Position numbers and translations under genes: made by a program. From positions 1 through 52,530 of the forward strand of contig CAMZGD010000004.1 in NCBI GenBank assembly GCA_947306365.1: a stretch of 52,530 nt of DNA. The letters run 5' to 3'. Below are positions 21,000 to 26,546 of this stretch, in pieces. The first letter of the stretch is position 1. Each line of letters starts with the position of its first letter. The notes beneath the pieces are model-generated. The model made no database searches. It saw only the letters and a program-made list of their open reading frames with translations, and was not told the origin of the DNA. Origin of the DNA: an uncultured Bacteroidales bacterium. Lineage in GTDB: Bacteria > Bacteroidota > Bacteroidia > Bacteroidales > UBA932.

Positions 21000-21899
21000 C
21001 TAAACCGGAACGGCCGCAGTCGTGCCGTAGGCCGTTTCTTTCCGCATTGCGTCGAGAATCTGATAGAAGACCTCCGGAAGATTGCGGGTTACGCGCTGCG
21101 CAATCGCTTCGGGCACGCCGCCGTAGAATGCCTCTGCGATGCCACCGGTGATGCACGCCAGCGTATCGCTGTCGCCGCCCAGGGAGACGGCCTTACGGAT
21201 GGCGTCTTCGAAATCCGTTGAATCCAGAAAGGCGATGATGGCTTGCGGGACCGTGCCCTGGCAGCTGGAATCCCAGTGATAGATGGGATGCCAATACTCC
21301 CAGGTTTTGTGAAGATCATAGCCGTAAGTCTTTTCGATGTAATCACGGATTTCTTCCTTTGTTTTGCCCGTCCTGGCAAGGAAGATGGCGGCGGCCGTCG
21401 CCTGCGCGCCCTTGATGCCTTCCGGATGGTTGTGCGTGACGGCCGCCGAGATGCCGGCGACGCGCTCCGTCTCCTCGAGCGTATCGAAGAACCATCCGAC
21501 CGCACTCACGCGCATGGCCGATCCGTTGCCCCAGGAATTGTAGGGACGACGTCCTGTTTTGGACTCGTATGGAGAAACCGTATCCGGCCAGTTGCCCTCC
21601 GGGGCGAACAGCCACTGATAGAACATCCCGCCATAATCGCCCATCGGACAGGGAAACTCTTCCCCAAACTTCACCACCGCATCCTCGAGCCCCTGATAAC
21701 TGAGATCTTTGTCATTGAGAAGCCACCAGGCCACAGCCATCGTCATGATGCTGTCATCGGTATAATTACTCCATTCGTCGAACAGAGGGAAATCGTAATC
21801 TTTTGTGTTGTTGAACTCATAGGTCGAGCCTATGGTGTCTCCTGCCAATGCGCCTGTCATATTCGGTTGTTTTTTCGATGGTGAATCAAAGATAGTCAT
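21000..21899 (-). CDS. ADP-ribosylglycohydrolase (DraG/ARH type)
   Basis: A 299-residue all-helical hydrolase. The two metal-site motifs are present: TDDS at 47-50 and GGDSDTLA at 241-248 (Asp243, Asp245, Thr246). Such enzymes remove ADP-ribose from protein side chains, nucleic acids or small molecules. The gene starts four bases after the stop of the von Willebrand/macro-like gene, so the two are in one operon divergent from an NrtR-type regulator. This context suggests reversal or processing of ADP-ribosylation, or ADP-ribose recycling for NAD. The natural substrate is unknown. Confidence 0.9.
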   Translation of the reverse strand: MTIFDSPSKKQPNMTGALAGDTIGSTYEFNNTKDYDFPLFDEWSNYTDDSIMTMAVAWWLLNDKDLSYQGLEDAVVKFGEEFPCPMGDYGGMFYQWLFAPEGNWPDTVSPYESKTGRRPYNSWGNGSAMRVSAVGWFFDTLEETERVAGISAAVTHNHPEGIKGAQATAAAIFLARTGKTKEEIRDYIEKTYGYDLHKTWEYWHPIYHWDSSCQGTVPQAIIAFLDSTDFEDAIRKAVSLGGDSDTLACITGGIAEAFYGGVPEAIAQRVTRNLPEVFYQILDAMRKETAYGTTAAVPV

Positions 21900-21902
21900 T
21901 TT

Positions 21903-22964
21903 TTACCGGTTGTACCTATAGTTGAGAATCTTCCAGAACGAGGCCGGAAGGTAGATATTGGGAAGGCCGGAAGCGAAGGCAAACAGCGGTGCGATCTGCT
22001 CATCGGTATAGCCGGCGATGCCGCAGCCGATACGGGTGACCAGAAAGGTCAGCTCCGGATGCCGGTCGGCGAACCGGATGAAATCTTCGACATAGCGACC
22101 GATCTCCGGGAGCGGAAGGTTCATCGTAGGGATGGCATAGCTCTGTCCCTGCAGGCCCCTGCCCTGTCCGTATACCGCACCGAAACGTTCCCGTGCCAGA
22201 CGGGCGGCGCCCCCGTCGTGATGACCGGCCTCGTTGCTGCCGAAGACAAAGACCTGCCCCTCCTGCAGGGCCGTGATCCGGTCGGGCGTCACGCGCACCT
22301 GCGATTGCTTCTGGGCGTAGAAATCTTCTTCGAAGTCGACGTCCTCCCCCGCCTTGTGCCGGCGGACCTTCTTATAGTATTCCCGATGGCTGGAGCGCAT
22401 CTTGTCCCACATCATCTGCGTGCCCTCCATCGAGGCTTCAAAGTCCATCGTGCTGCGGATGCCCAGTCCCCGTGCCGTCCTTTCGGAATCCTGATTGGCA
22501 CCGATGTAGGTAAACACCCATCCTTTCGCCTTGAGGCCGTCCACCAGTTCCCGGATCATCCCGGCCGTGTAATGGCGGGATGCGTTTTCATAGCCGTCGG
22601 TCACCACCGTAACCAGGACGTGGTCGCCCTCCCGGACCTGTTTCTGCAAGGCCGTGACGGACTTGCCCATCGCGTCGTAAAGCGGCGTCATCCCTTCCGG
22701 ATGGTACTGCTCGGGTTTGATGTCCCCTACATTCTCGATCTTCTCATTGTCGATGATCAGCCGTACGTCCGGCCGGCTGCGAGGTCCCTGGTCGAAGGTG
22801 ACGAAGCTGAGCATCTGGTGATCGTCCGGGTTCTCCTGCTGTGCCTGACGAATGGTCTGGATAGTCTCGTTGACCCCGGTGAGTGCCTGGAAACGGATAT
22901 CATCCATGGAACCGCTCTCGTCCAGGATGATGAGGTTGTAGATGTAGTTGACCGACTCTTTCAT
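21903..22964 (-). CDS. von Willebrand A domain fused to macro-like domain
   Basis: A 353-residue protein of two parts. Residues 5-180 form a vWA domain with an intact metal-ion site: Asp15-x-Ser17-x-Ser19 (DESGS), Thr93 and Asp123 (VTDG). Residues 235-353 begin QVFVFGSNEAGHHDGGAA and continue with GQGRGLQGQSYAIPT and RIGCGIAGY, a compact macro-like fold known from phage and bacterial proteins and linked in genome context to ADP-ribose metabolism. There is no signal peptide, so it is cytoplasmic. The vWA part would bind a partner through its metal; the second part may bind or cut an ADP-ribose or NAD derivative (inference). It leads the operon with the glycohydrolase. Confidence 0.75.
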   Translation of the reverse strand: MKESVNYIYNLIILDESGSMDDIRFQALTGVNETIQTIRQAQQENPDDHQMLSFVTFDQGPRSRPDVRLIIDNEKIENVGDIKPEQYHPEGMTPLYDAMGKSVTALQKQVREGDHVLVTVVTDGYENASRHYTAGMIRELVDGLKAKGWVFTYIGANQDSERTARGLGIRSTMDFEASMEGTQMMWDKMRSSHREYYKKVRRHKAGEDVDFEEDFYAQKQSQVRVTPDRITALQEGQVFVFGSNEAGHHDGGAARLARERFGAVYGQGRGLQGQSYAIPTMNLPLPEIGRYVEDFIRFADRHPELTFLVTRIGCGIAGYTDEQIAPLFAFASGLPNIYLPASFWKILNYRYNR

Positions 22965-22990
22965 GGCTTTGCTTTTTGTTGCTGGTTGTT

Positions 22991-23007
22991 TGTGTAATTT
23001 TTACGCA
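22991..23007. promoter_or_regulatory. palindromic operator, copy 1
   Basis: TGTGTAATTTTTACGCA, one base different from a perfect 7-3-7 palindrome. It overlaps the G of the -7 element and the expected start of transcription of the leftward vWA/macro-like operon. Fifteen of its first 17 aligned positions plus spacer are the same as copy 2. Confidence 0.75.
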
Positions 23008-23036
23008 AAGATAAAGCCTTTCTCCCACATTTCCAA
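23006..23036 (-). promoter_or_regulatory. promoter of the vWA/macro-like operon
   Basis: On the minus strand TTG (23034-23036), 20 bases, TATCTTTG (23006-23013), a full Bacteroidota promoter. Operator copy 1 sits on its start site and copy 2 lies just upstream of its -33 box. Confidence 0.8.
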
Positions 23037-23042
23037 ATTTTA

Positions 23043-23059
23043 TGTGTAATTTTTACACA
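23043..23059. promoter_or_regulatory. palindromic operator, copy 2
   Basis: TGTGTAATTTTTACACA, perfect 7-bp arms around TTT. It starts 52 bases (about five helical turns) from copy 1, so both face the same side of the DNA. It ends seven bases before the -33 box of the nrtR-like gene. Confidence 0.8.
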
Positions 23060-23065
23060 ATTTTC

Positions 23066-23096
23066 TTGCAACTGCTGCGGATTCGCATTACCTTTG
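23066..23096 (+). promoter_or_regulatory. promoter of the nrtR-like gene
   Basis: TTG (23066-23068), 20 bases, TACCTTTG (23089-23096). Transcription would start near 23100, giving a leader of about 16 bases before the ATG at 23116. Confidence 0.8.
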
Positions 23097-23115
23097 CGCA
23101 AAACAAGGAAAAACG

Positions 23116-23841
23116 ATGGCAAAGAAAGGTCAATACACCTACGAGTATCCGCATCCGGCGGTCACGGCCGACTGCGTGGTTTTCGGATACGACGGCAAAG
23201 AGCTGAAGGTCCTTCTTATCAGGCGTGGACAGGAAAAGGAAGCCAGCGCCACCGCCTATGTCGGCGAATGGGCGCTTCCCGGCGGCTTCCTCGAGGTGGA
23301 TAAAGACAAGACAATCGCCCATACCGCCGCCCGGGAGCTGAAGGAAGAAACCGGCCTCAAACTCTCCGTCAAGGACTTCAGGGAAGTCGGCACCTTCAGT
23401 GACATCAACCGCGACCCGCGTGAGCGCGTGATTACCGTCGCACACTATGCCCTGGTCAAGCTCGCCGAAGTCGCGGCGGACACCGACGCCGAAAAAGCCG
23501 AATGGTTCAGCTGGACCGACATCCCCCACCTGGCCTTCGACCACGACAAGATCCTCCGCGTGGCCTTCTCCCGCCTCAAGCAGAACATTCACTTCGAGCC
23601 GGTCGGCTTCGAGCTCCTCCCGGAAGTCTTCACCCTCCCCCAGCTGCAGCATCTCTACGAATCGATCCTCGAGGTCAAATTCGACCGCCGCAACTTCGCC
23701 AACAAGATGAAGCACTATGAGATCCTGACCGAAGTGGCGGACGAAACCCCGCGCCACGGCACACGAACCCCCGTCAAGTACCGCTTCGACAAGGAGAACT
23801 ACGACCGGCTCAAAAGCAACGGGTTCCAGTTGGAGTTCTGA
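23116..23841 (+). CDS. NrtR-type Nudix-domain transcriptional regulator
   Basis: A 241-residue protein. Residues 10-150 are a Nudix domain, but the box is altered: from GG (56-57) to RELKEETG (73-80) there are two extra residues and the first catalytic glutamate of the box is missing, while Glu77 and Glu78 remain. Residues 165-241 match the winged-helix C-terminus of NrtR (FTLPQLQHLYESIL, then DRRNFANKM). In characterised NrtR the Nudix part senses ADP-ribose and releases DNA. The divergent operon carries ADP-ribose-linked enzymes and both promoters hold the same palindrome, so autoregulation and control of that operon are likely. It could be an arabinose-type Nudix regulator, but the neighbours argue against that. 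Confidence 0.85.
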   Translation: MAKKGQYTYEYPHPAVTADCVVFGYDGKELKVLLIRRGQEKEASATAYVGEWALPGGFLEVDKDKTIAHTAARELKEETGLKLSVKDFREVGTFSDINRDPRERVITVAHYALVKLAEVAADTDAEKAEWFSWTDIPHLAFDHDKILRVAFSRLKQNIHFEPVGFELLPEVFTLPQLQHLYESILEVKFDRRNFANKMKHYEILTEVADETPRHGTRTPVKYRFDKENYDRLKSNGFQLEF

Positions 23842-24703: not shown

Positions 24704-25470
24704 CTAATTAAGGGTGTTGATCAGACTGACGGTCAGCTTGAGCATTGTGTCCATCTCATCCATCCGGCTTTCGGCAATCATCAGCGTAAGGGCGACAAGT
24801 GCGTTGTCGGCGATGCGCTTACGACCGTCTTCCCCGTATAGCACACCATTCTTGTCCATAAACCAAAGGAAGAGGGTTGCTGCGATACGCTTGTTGCCGT
24901 CGCTGAAACTATGGTTCTTGGTGACCAGATAGAGCAGCATGGCGGCCTTTTCTTCAATAGATGGATACAACTCCTGCCCGTCCCAGGTTTGAAGGTATAG
25001 TCACGGACTACATCAAAGATTGAGCGGACCTGATCGGCTTCTTGCTCTTTCATCCCAACATAGTTCATCGTCCGTCCCATCACCGACACCAGTTGCTTCA
25101 GTTCTTCAAACTTTTGCCGGGCCAGGTCGTTCTTGACGGCATAGCCGTGGATAAGGTAGTCTTTGAGCACAGACGAGGCCCAACGTCTGAAATGGACACC
25201 ACGCCGTGAATGCACCCTATATCCGACAGAGATAATCACATCCAAGCTATAAACCGATGTGGGTTTGTACTTTGAAGTATTATGCAAAAAACGCATATTA
25301 CTCTCCTTATCGACCTCACCTTCCTTAAAAGCATTACTGATATGTCGCGCAATCGTGGACTGATTCTTTTCAAAAAGGACCGTCATCTGATCTTGCGTCA
25401 GCCACACAGTCTCATTCTCCAGTTTGACATCCAGTTGAGTCTGACCGTCTTCGGTCTGATAGAGGATCAC
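24704..25470 (-). pseudogene. RhuM-Fic/DOC family gene, broken by internal deletion
   Basis: The 5' part (from the GTG at 25470, with AGGAGG just upstream) encodes the RhuM-type N-terminus: LENETVWLTQDQM, then STIARHISNAF, YSLDVIISVGYRVHS and FRRWASSVLKDYLIHG, up to RSIFDVVRDYTF. Near 24985-24993 the frame is lost. The 3' part, in another frame, carries YPSIEEKAAMLLYLVTKN followed by the Fic motif HSFSDGNKRIA, to a stop at 24704. In intact relatives a linker of several dozen residues separates these blocks, so the junction is an out-of-frame deletion rather than a single slipped base. A Fic AMPylation toxin is therefore probably inactive here, unless the 88-residue tail from 24970 is made alone. 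Confidence 0.8.
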
Positions 25471-25594
25471 TTCGCCTCCTGGTCGGGATCGCCATCCGAA
25501 TAGTCGAACCGCAATTTCTGACCAGAAAGGTGACGTTCAGCCGCGTGATACAAACAGTACGAGGAGTTTGTCGCCCAGCCGGGACTTGCCGAAC

Positions 25595-25616
25595 GATAAT
25601 TATCAACAAATTTGTT
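25595..25616. promoter_or_regulatory. two abutting palindromes, candidate XRE operator
   Basis: GATAATTATC (25595-25604) and AACAAATTTGTT (25605-25616) are perfect palindromes lying side by side. The second covers the -33 box of the XRE promoter, the expected place for autorepression by an antitoxin-type regulator. Confidence 0.55.
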
Positions 25617-25642
25617 TATTATTTTTGTATTGATTATTTTTG
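25612..25642 (+). promoter_or_regulatory. promoter of the XRE gene
   Basis: TTG (25612-25614), 20 bases, TATTTTTG (25635-25642). The ATG at 25649 follows six bases later, so the message is nearly leaderless. Confidence 0.75.
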
Positions 25643-25648
25643 CGGGAG

Positions 25649-26218
25649 ATGATCGAGCAAGGACAATATGATGTGCAGGCTGCCGGGGAAATAATCCGGG
25701 AACGATTGGCCAGTATGCGGATGAGCCAGGTGGAGCTGGCCAGCCGCTGCGGCGAACACGTCCAGGTCATTTCTGCCATCCTGAACGGACAGCGGGATAT
25801 TCCTATTCCCCTCTCCGTGAAGCTCGACTGCGCCCTGGAGCTGGATCCGGGAACGGTTGCGGTTGCGCAGGCGAGGTATTTGGTATCGAAGGAGATGCAG
25901 CGCCAGAAGGTCCAGGATATGCAGAGCCGGAAAATAGCCGTCCTGGAGAAGATCAAGGCAGCGGGCGGCTTATGGTCATATCAAGGCATTCCGGAGCATC
26001 TGGACGATGACGAGATCATCGAGGCCGCTCTGGTTCATCTGGAGCTGGAAGACTTGCCGATGCTGCTCAAGATCTGGAGCAAATCGCATCTTAAGAGGGT
26101 GTGGAAGGAGCGCCTCGTCAGCCAGGGGAGGAGAATGAATATACTGAATTTTATCTTGGCCGTTAAACTGTTCGGGGTCAGACATCCCGACCAATACTTG
26201 ATTCGCTATGCCCACTGA
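25649..26218 (+). CDS. XRE-family antitoxin-like regulator with DUF6922-like C-terminus
   Basis: A 189-residue protein. Residues 10-65 form an XRE/HigA-type helix-turn-helix (MRMSQVELASRCGEHVQVISAILNG in outline). A charged linker leads to a C-terminal part (about 105-189) with IPEHLDDDEIIEAALVHLELEDLP and LNFILAVKLFGVRHPDQYL, resembling DUF6922. In Bacteroidota this arrangement usually precedes an AbiEii nucleotidyltransferase toxin. Here the next gene is a truncated AbiEii, so this is probably an orphan antitoxin. Start: the ATG at 25649, since the in-frame TTG nine bases earlier is within the -7 element. Confidence 0.75.
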   Translation: MIEQGQYDVQAAGEIIRERLASMRMSQVELASRCGEHVQVISAILNGQRDIPIPLSVKLDCALELDPGTVAVAQARYLVSKEMQRQKVQDMQSRKIAVLEKIKAAGGLWSYQGIPEHLDDDEIIEAALVHLELEDLPMLLKIWSKSHLKRVWKERLVSQGRRMNILNFILAVKLFGVRHPDQYLIRYAH

Positions 26219-26546
26219 AAACAGCTTGTCGGAAATAACGGGACTTACGCCCGCCACGCAGGAATTGCTGGGGATGAAGGTCTACGCCATCTGCATGCGA
26301 ACGGTGTTCAGGGACTATTATGACATTTATTTCCTCCTGAAAGCCGGATGCAACCTGACCGAAGCCGTGAGCTACGCCAGCTATCTTTCCCGCCACACCA
26401 TCCGCTCCAAGTCAATGTACACGAAACTCCTCTCGCCTCAACTATTCCGCAAGGATGAAGACTTCCAACGGATGTCTCCTGCCGAAGACATATCACCTGA
26501 GGAAATCCGGGACTACATCAAGGCCGTGATGGAAAACGAGCATTGA
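26208..26546 (+). pseudogene. AbiEii/AbiGii-type toxin, N-terminally truncated
   Basis: A 112-residue remnant. The block ELLGMKVYAICMRT followed by FRDYYDIYFLL is the conserved end of the nucleotidyltransferase domain of AbiEii/DUF1814 toxins, and the rest is the helical C-terminus. The N-terminal half with the GS/DxD nucleotidyltransferase motif is absent; what precedes it is only ten residues overlapping the antitoxin stop. The toxin should be inactive. Intact AbiEii proteins block growth by modifying tRNA or a related target after phage infection. Confidence 0.75.

Follow-up and report, generated by a model that had tools for sequence, protein, structure and literature searches.

Paired candidate operators of an NrtR-family regulator bracket the predicted promoter of a putative ADP-ribose-eraser operon in an uncultured Bacteroidales bacterium

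The contig CAMZGD010000004.1 of an uncultured Bacteroidales bacterium of gut type (assembly GCA_947306365.1), analysed here over its positions 1 to 52,530 and hereafter called the window, carries a gene coding for an NrtR-family regulator, divergent from two genes that encode, respectively, a protein in which a vWA domain is fused to an A1S_2505 domain (vWA-A1S) and an ADP-ribosylglycohydrolase (ARG). As only 3 bp separate the vWA-A1S and ARG genes, these two likely form an operon. The gap between nrtR and vWA-A1S spans 151 bp (22965-23115) and does contain the two near-identical 7-3-7 palindromes, with starts 52 bp apart, that a preliminary description of this DNA had reported, together with promoter-like boxes on both strands (Table 1). 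The genome of the window (G000) amounts to 2.14 Mb and is 86.9% complete; in what follows, L-numbers designate fetched stretches and G-numbers genomes, G034 being a same-genus genome of 98% completeness.

Table 1. Features of the nrtR/vWA-A1S/ARG locus (positions in the window)
Feature	Position	Strand	Description
NrtR-family regulator gene	23116-23841	+	241 amino acids; Nudix domain 15-147, NrtR winged helix 164-224
Rightward promoter-like boxes	23066-23096	+	TTG 23066-23068, 20-bp spacer, -7 TACCTTTG 23089-23096
Promoter-distal candidate operator TGTGTAATTTTTACACA	23043-23059		perfect 7-3-7 palindrome; near the -33-like boxes of both promoters
Leftward promoter-like boxes	23006-23037	-	-33 TTTG 23037-23034, 20-bp spacer, -7 TATCTTTG 23013-23006
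Promoter-proximal candidate operator TGTGTAATTTTTACGCA	22991-23007		7-3-7 palindrome with one change
vWA-A1S gene	21903-22964	-	353 amino acids; vWA domain fused to A1S_2505 domain, predicted macro fold
ARG/DraG-like gene	21000-21899	-	299 amino acids; ADP-ribosylglycohydrolase by Pfam and motifs

Boxes of the TTTG and TAnnTTTG kind are typical of Bacteroidetes promoters. The preliminary description had placed one palindrome on the -7 box of the leftward operon and the other close to the -33 boxes of both promoters, which the coordinates bear out: the proximal palindrome has two bases in common with the leftward -7-like box, whose last TG opens the palindrome, and the distal one lies 5 bp from the leftward -33-like TTTG. 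The rightward boxes in front of nrtR are accompanied by the distal palindrome only, at 6 bp from the -33-like TTG. A scan of the window allowing up to three mismatches returned three matches, two of which are a single place read on both strands, compared to a mean of 0.09 in shuffled sequence. At the scale of the genome, the two palindromes are the sole places within one mismatch of TGTGTAANNNTTACACA; at two mismatches, three places were recorded and the reversed-pattern control also gave three, thereby making the looser matches uninformative.

The naming of the regulator as NrtR-type is supported by its architecture, an N-terminal Nudix domain followed by a C-terminal NrtR winged helix (PF00293, 63.1 bits; PF21906, 66.2 bits; PF19368, 40.7 bits); with the NCBI NrtR equivalog model NF050029 it scores 132.2 bits, below the cut-off of 400. 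Among solved structures, BtAraR (5bs6) is the closest by sequence (E 3.2e-38), SoNrtR (3gz5) being matched at E 1.6e-21. The ARG protein, also identified as such from the start, matches PF03747 with 125.7 bits and bears the stretches YTDDS, SWGNGSAMR and GGDSDT, that is, the TDD, GNG and GGDxDT motifs of the ADP-ribosylglycohydrolase family. In the vWA-A1S protein, the vWA part is recognised by PF00092 (28.6 bits), by Foldseek matches to vWA folds and by a DxSGS motif, which we take to be of the MIDAS type, and the A1S_2505 part reaches 145.9 bits with NF049995 (cut-off 45). The structural model of this latter domain (pLDDT 93.1) has macro domains as its top Foldseek matches, with TM-scores up to 0.69, among others the S. 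coelicolor macrodomain protein 5e3b (presumably SCO6735), PARP14 macro 1 and TARG1 (4j5s), the identity to 5e3b and TARG1 being about 15-17%. The domain is thus predicted to adopt a macro fold, with moderate scores, in line with its earlier labelling as 'macro-like'. Relatives of A1S_2505 are present in 459 of 50,697 phage records, one of them annotated as N4 gp14-like, and the domain corresponds to phrog_2072, a family of unknown function.

The recurrence of these operators was followed in a comparison set made of the window and 81 stretches fetched by homology, none by motif, and annotated with models built for this work. It comprises 23 eraser-linked stretches, defined by an NrtR gene adjoining vWA, A1S or ARG genes (in two cases assigned manually on Pfam matches), 15 salvage-linked NrtR, 25 other NrtR and 18 eraser stretches without NrtR; L057, a duplicate of L042, was removed from the tree and from the best-pair counts, and is still included in the annotation and in the counts of 78 sites and 36 pairs given hereafter. 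The upstream regions (n = 118) contain 78 sites with at most three mismatches over 14 positions, compared to 3.95 in dinucleotide shuffles. Among the 36 site pairs found within 120 bp, 20 are spaced by 52 or 53 bp (19 of 35 without the duplicate), and these are distributed over 19 separate stretches, four of which are vWA-A1S operons with no NrtR in the stretch. When only the best pair per stretch is considered, a pair is present in 16 of the 23 eraser-linked and 12 of the 15 salvage-linked stretches, 10 of these 12 being at exactly 53 bp, versus 4 of the 18 eraser stretches devoid of NrtR and 5 of 25 other NrtR stretches; two-base-block shuffles predict 0.48 pairs in 106 regions. Bracketing of the promoter was judged in 14 promoters selected by hand: the last two bases of the -7-like box also belong to the proximal site in 13 of them, the site of L044 starting one base past the box, and the distal site is followed by TTTG in ten promoters, by TTG only in L115 and L116, and by nothing clear in L059 and L124.

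A scan of 17 chosen genomes gave 23 places within one mismatch of the pattern, compared to nine for its reversed version; 14 of them are at the studied NrtR or eraser loci, and the nine others are at control level. In G004, nrtR (L047) and the vWA-A1S/ARG operon (L048) are located on different contigs, and the sole places within one mismatch are at these two loci; judged by its sequence, this split arrangement would represent a natural in-trans test of the regulator-operator pair. No 52-53 bp pair was seen in the 1.5-kb flanks of the further A1S loci L164-L195, where two weak sites at a distance of 109 bp occur in the NrtR-linked G267 locus L194 and a single site in each of L169, L174 and L177.

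With regard to gene content, the A1S domain is found fused to vWA (in the window and others), to ARG (L045 and L118) and to Nudix (L145), and this variety of fusions suggests a common substrate for the domains. In L145 (3946-4851), the Nudix domain is joined directly to the macro-like A1S domain, and Pfam shows no NrtR winged helix; in L059 (4875-6044), the vWA-A1S gene is broken into two open reading frames (ORFs). In 295 Bacteroidales genomes, at least 11 of the 55 A1S places have an NrtR-type gene, among those listed, no more than 5 kb away, for a chance expectation of about 0.4% each under an assumed gene density. In L128 (4483-8991), an NrtR gene, a radical SAM protein gene, ARG and a Macro-domain gene follow one another, with two unscanned ORFs interspersed and no paired operator of this kind. 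The second nrtR of G034 (L043, 4188-4913), 84% identical, is accompanied by weak operators at a spacing of 53 bp, its stretch being devoid of eraser genes.

The same operators also accompany a second group of NrtR genes, located beside NAPRTase (PF04095, L117) and PncA-like genes. The NAPRTase family PF04095, the one NAD gene searched for, exceeded its cut-off in two of eight genomes (G061 and G257) and was detected neither in the window genome nor in its congener G034, and the regulator may therefore have only eraser targets in this genus. As a side observation, the NrtR and PncA-like genes of L122, L123, L126 and L136 precede a vWA-like gene and a conserved neighbouring gene (PP2C in L122); three of these stretches also have a kinase-like gene (a protein kinase match in L123). 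The pattern presumably reflects a coupling of nicotinamide salvage to a TerY-P-like triad.

The residues of SoNrtR named as ADP-ribose contacts include Arg41, Asn43, Lys76 and Arg98, the position of Arg98 being occupied by Gly in AraR (PMC4666351). In an alignment to the window protein, made with an inferred three-residue tag offset and leaving out Tyr10 and Phe15, Arg41 and Arg98 correspond to Arg37 and Arg102 and are both kept. The RDPR motif with the ADP-ribose-contacting Arg is present in all 23 eraser-linked and all 15 salvage-linked regulators, and Arg occupies the Arg98 place in 16 of the 25 others, three of the remainder having Gly. A full Nudix signature was detected in 13 of 23 eraser-linked, 11 of 15 salvage-linked and 12 of 25 other regulators; in the window regulator and its own clade, the first Glu of the box is replaced by Lys and two residues are inserted, while RELKEETGL is retained. 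In the regulator tree, one branch of 36 rows (support 87/91) holds 22 of the 23 eraser-linked and none of the 15 salvage-linked regulators, the eraser-linked ones not forming a single clade (the label needs 11 changes versus 18.9 in shuffles). Since the Arg contact is conserved and a related NrtR group sits on NAD-salvage genes, ADP-ribose is, from these alignments, a plausible inducer of the window regulator.

From the sequences, their architecture and conservation, and the domain and fold assignments, all of which are established, we infer repression, cooperativity, the ligand and the enzyme activities. The interpretation that we favour, with a probability of about 0.7, is that of an NrtR-family repressor releasable by ADP-ribose, of which dimers would occupy the two palindromes bracketing the promoter of an ADP-ribose-erasing operon. 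One dimer on each palindrome would close the leftward -33/-7 promoter and, as 52 bp corresponds to about five helical turns, the two dimers would lie on one face of the DNA. Helical phase was rejected as the sole cause of this spacing, since the bracketed promoter has this same length, which makes helical phase and promoter geometry inseparable here. The vWA-macro fusion would probably hold targets that carry ADP-ribose, with their hydrolysis as a possible further activity, and the ADP-ribosylglycohydrolase made from the same operon would strip ADP-ribose. ADP-ribose, or a close derivative, would then bind the Nudix domain and cause the repressor to leave the DNA, so that the operon would be expressed during the removal of ADP-ribosylation. 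An extension that seems unlikely to us is that the regulator would also hydrolyse the ADP-ribose that releases it, thus being both sensor and destroyer and acting as a self-resetting pulse switch for the eraser operon; the idea arises from the REx2EE metal-binding core, which is kept, and from the full Nudix signature of the 13 eraser-linked relatives. The NrtR and AraR proteins described in PMC6800001 and PMC4666351 are inactive or have impaired Nudix boxes.

Several observations weigh against this interpretation. Two of the four mapped ADP-ribose contacts are lost in the window regulator, Asn43 and Lys76 of SoNrtR being replaced by Gln39 and Glu78, the latter a Glu of the Nudix box. The Foldseek support for the macro fold is moderate, with a best E of 4e-3 and none at or below 1e-3, and Pfam yields no macro match in the vWA-A1S protein. 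No operator pair was found in seven of the 23 eraser-linked stretches (L128, L061, L134, L046, L138, L160 and L157), which implies either that other operator designs exist or that these genes are outside this control; in addition, the sole pair of L145 is 113 bp apart and five other eraser-linked pairs are at 50, 55 or 56 bp. The salvage-linked L132 and L133 show a single site each in about 160 bp of upstream DNA, the third stretch of that group without a pair, L129, having merely 45 bp of upstream DNA. Besides, a pair is lacking in 14 of the 18 NrtR-less eraser stretches, including all six ARG loci L149-L154, and 44 of the 55 A1S places are away from any listed NrtR, so that A1S also occurs outside this pairing. 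Finally, ARG is the least constant part, being present in only 10 of 59 family genomes. In the related genomes, a scan of which the preliminary description had proposed, the paired operators are conserved along with the gene pairing. ARG is not constant there: L042, from the same genus, combines NrtR with vWA-A1S and lacks ARG, and no ARG was found in the three other genomes of the genus.

Different purposes and ligands were also considered. The operon could be an anti-phage counter-measure, namely a Bacteroidales ARG-centred conflict system removing phage-placed ADP-ribose from host molecules, with the released ADP-ribose as alarm; this possibility, to which we give rather less than even odds, is compatible with the favoured explanation and adds a purpose to it. 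It draws on the match of the parts to a published prediction (ARG, Nudix repressor, vWA and optional macro; PMC9503650), on the existence of a PHROG phage family for every part, on the A1S relatives in phage records and on the presence 3' of nrtR of a PADLOC-matching PDC-S23/S05 gene and a short AbiEii-like piece. PADLOC gives, however, no match for ARG or the vWA-A1S protein, and no phosphatase was recognised among the two operon proteins and the regulator, one being present in a little over 55% of the published systems described in PMC9503650. Also in favour of this purpose, no transferase gene was recognised beside the operon, some neighbouring ORFs being unscanned, and DarT, the transferase family searched for, was found in none of eight genomes; against it, a sirtuin was found in eight of eight, that of the window genome on another contig, showing that endogenous sources of ADP-ribose exist. 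In a house-keeping role, a classical NAD-metabolism NrtR would control an operon that merely recycles ADP-ribose from the cell's own enzymes. This role is supported by the second NrtR group, whose members adjoin NAPRTase and PncA-like genes and share the operators, for the most part at a spacing of 53 bp; we regard it as possible and again somewhat doubtful, since the window genome holds no further operator within one mismatch and PF04095 was found neither there nor in its 98%-complete congener. An NAD-salvage regulon in the window genome was rejected on account of this missing NAPRTase.

A sugar-responsive regulator of the AraR/XylR type, with a pentose or other sugar as ligand, would account for BtAraR being the closest solved structure and for the similarity of the operator half-sites; in addition, Arg34, Arg86 and His131 of BtAraR (PMC4666351) have Arg37, Arg99 and His143 as their counterparts in the alignment with the window regulator. 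We nevertheless consider it improbable. The place of AraR Gly89 is occupied by Arg in all 23 eraser-linked regulators (Arg102 in the window), a difference on which an AraR-type ligand was rejected, that of Phe36 is Gln39 in the window, no sugar or ara genes were recognised by eye beside the window regulator, and the rows with AraR-like changed boxes (L156, L158, L159 and L162) fall in another tree branch, without a named AraR. Finally, the palindromes could be chance occurrences near unrelated genes. Lone 7-3-7 palindromes of any letters are common in the window (six perfect, 103 with at most one mismatch), which makes the recurrence of identical letters the significant feature; as the same letters occur in evenly spaced pairs at homologous and at unlinked operons across several families, chance was rejected as far as sequence allows and we regard it as negligible.

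Beyond nrtR, at 24704-26546, the window contains the PDC-S23/S05-matching gene, presumably RhuM-like, an overlapping Fic-like ORF and an XRE-like gene (both assigned by eye), and the short AbiEii-like piece, which together resemble a small defence or toxin-antitoxin patch that is broken in part. Searches with PADLOC and in a plasmid collection otherwise added little.

The closed feedback loop had been presented in the preliminary description as not usually described for NrtR. Section 3.8 of PMC9503650 (2022), however, already predicts such a loop for operons in which ARG comes with a Nudix-HTH repressor, a vWA protein and, optionally, a macro domain, the ADP-ribose freed by ARG being proposed to lift repression and the countering of viral ADP-ribosylation being a prediction there too. 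The loop is thus a rediscovery, the locus is a variant of the predicted system, and the earlier interpretation as a whole is partly supported. With those ARG-centred conflict systems the window shares ARG, a Nudix-HTH one-component regulator, a vWA protein and ADP-ribose as proposed inducer, and it holds the ARG gene and Nudix repressor by which the systems with Nudix or WYL repressors are recognised. In contrast to them, its vWA domain is fused to the macro-fold A1S_2505, no phosphatase was recognised and ARG is missing from the same-genus L042; the examples given in the section come from actinobacteria, planctomycetes and diverse proteobacteria, the string 'bacteroid' being absent from the main text, and no operators are described there, whereas the window has paired palindromes (PMC9503650).

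Like the NAD-metabolism regulators SoNrtR and MsNrtR (PMC6800001), the window regulator combines a Nudix domain with an NrtR winged helix, palindromic operators and a conserved ADP-ribose Arg contact, and has, by sequence, a candidate operator common to its own gene and to the target operon; unlike theirs, its predicted targets are eraser genes rather than NAD synthesis genes. The Nudix box, intact in 13 of the 23 eraser-linked regulators, is less conserved in MsNrtR, for which no hydrolase activity was detected (PMC6800001). BtAraR (BT0354), an arabinose-responsive repressor of the NrtR family, comes from the same phylum and likewise has tandem operators, 3 or 42 nt apart for AraR, with similar half-sites, which it binds in gel shifts; it differs from the window regulator by its arabinose pocket (Gly89 and Phe36), an impaired Nudix box and sugar-utilisation targets (PMC4666351). 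What is added here is the promoter-bracketing operators, the Bacteroidales form, the vWA-macro fusion, the versions that lack ARG and a Nudix box that is often intact, and no published account combining these operators with the Bacteroidales form was found in the open-licence literature.

The ADP-ribosylation that the operon would undo may stem from phages, rivals or the cell's own enzymes. The published prediction of ADP-ribose-induced eraser operons gains a concrete candidate regulator-operator pair, including a natural case in which the operon lies away from its regulator, and a single operator design connects, within one regulator family, the branch of NAD salvage with that of ADP-ribose erasing. 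Besides, the predicted macro fold would provide a lead for the phrog_2072 genes of phages, hundreds of which carry the A1S_2505 domain.

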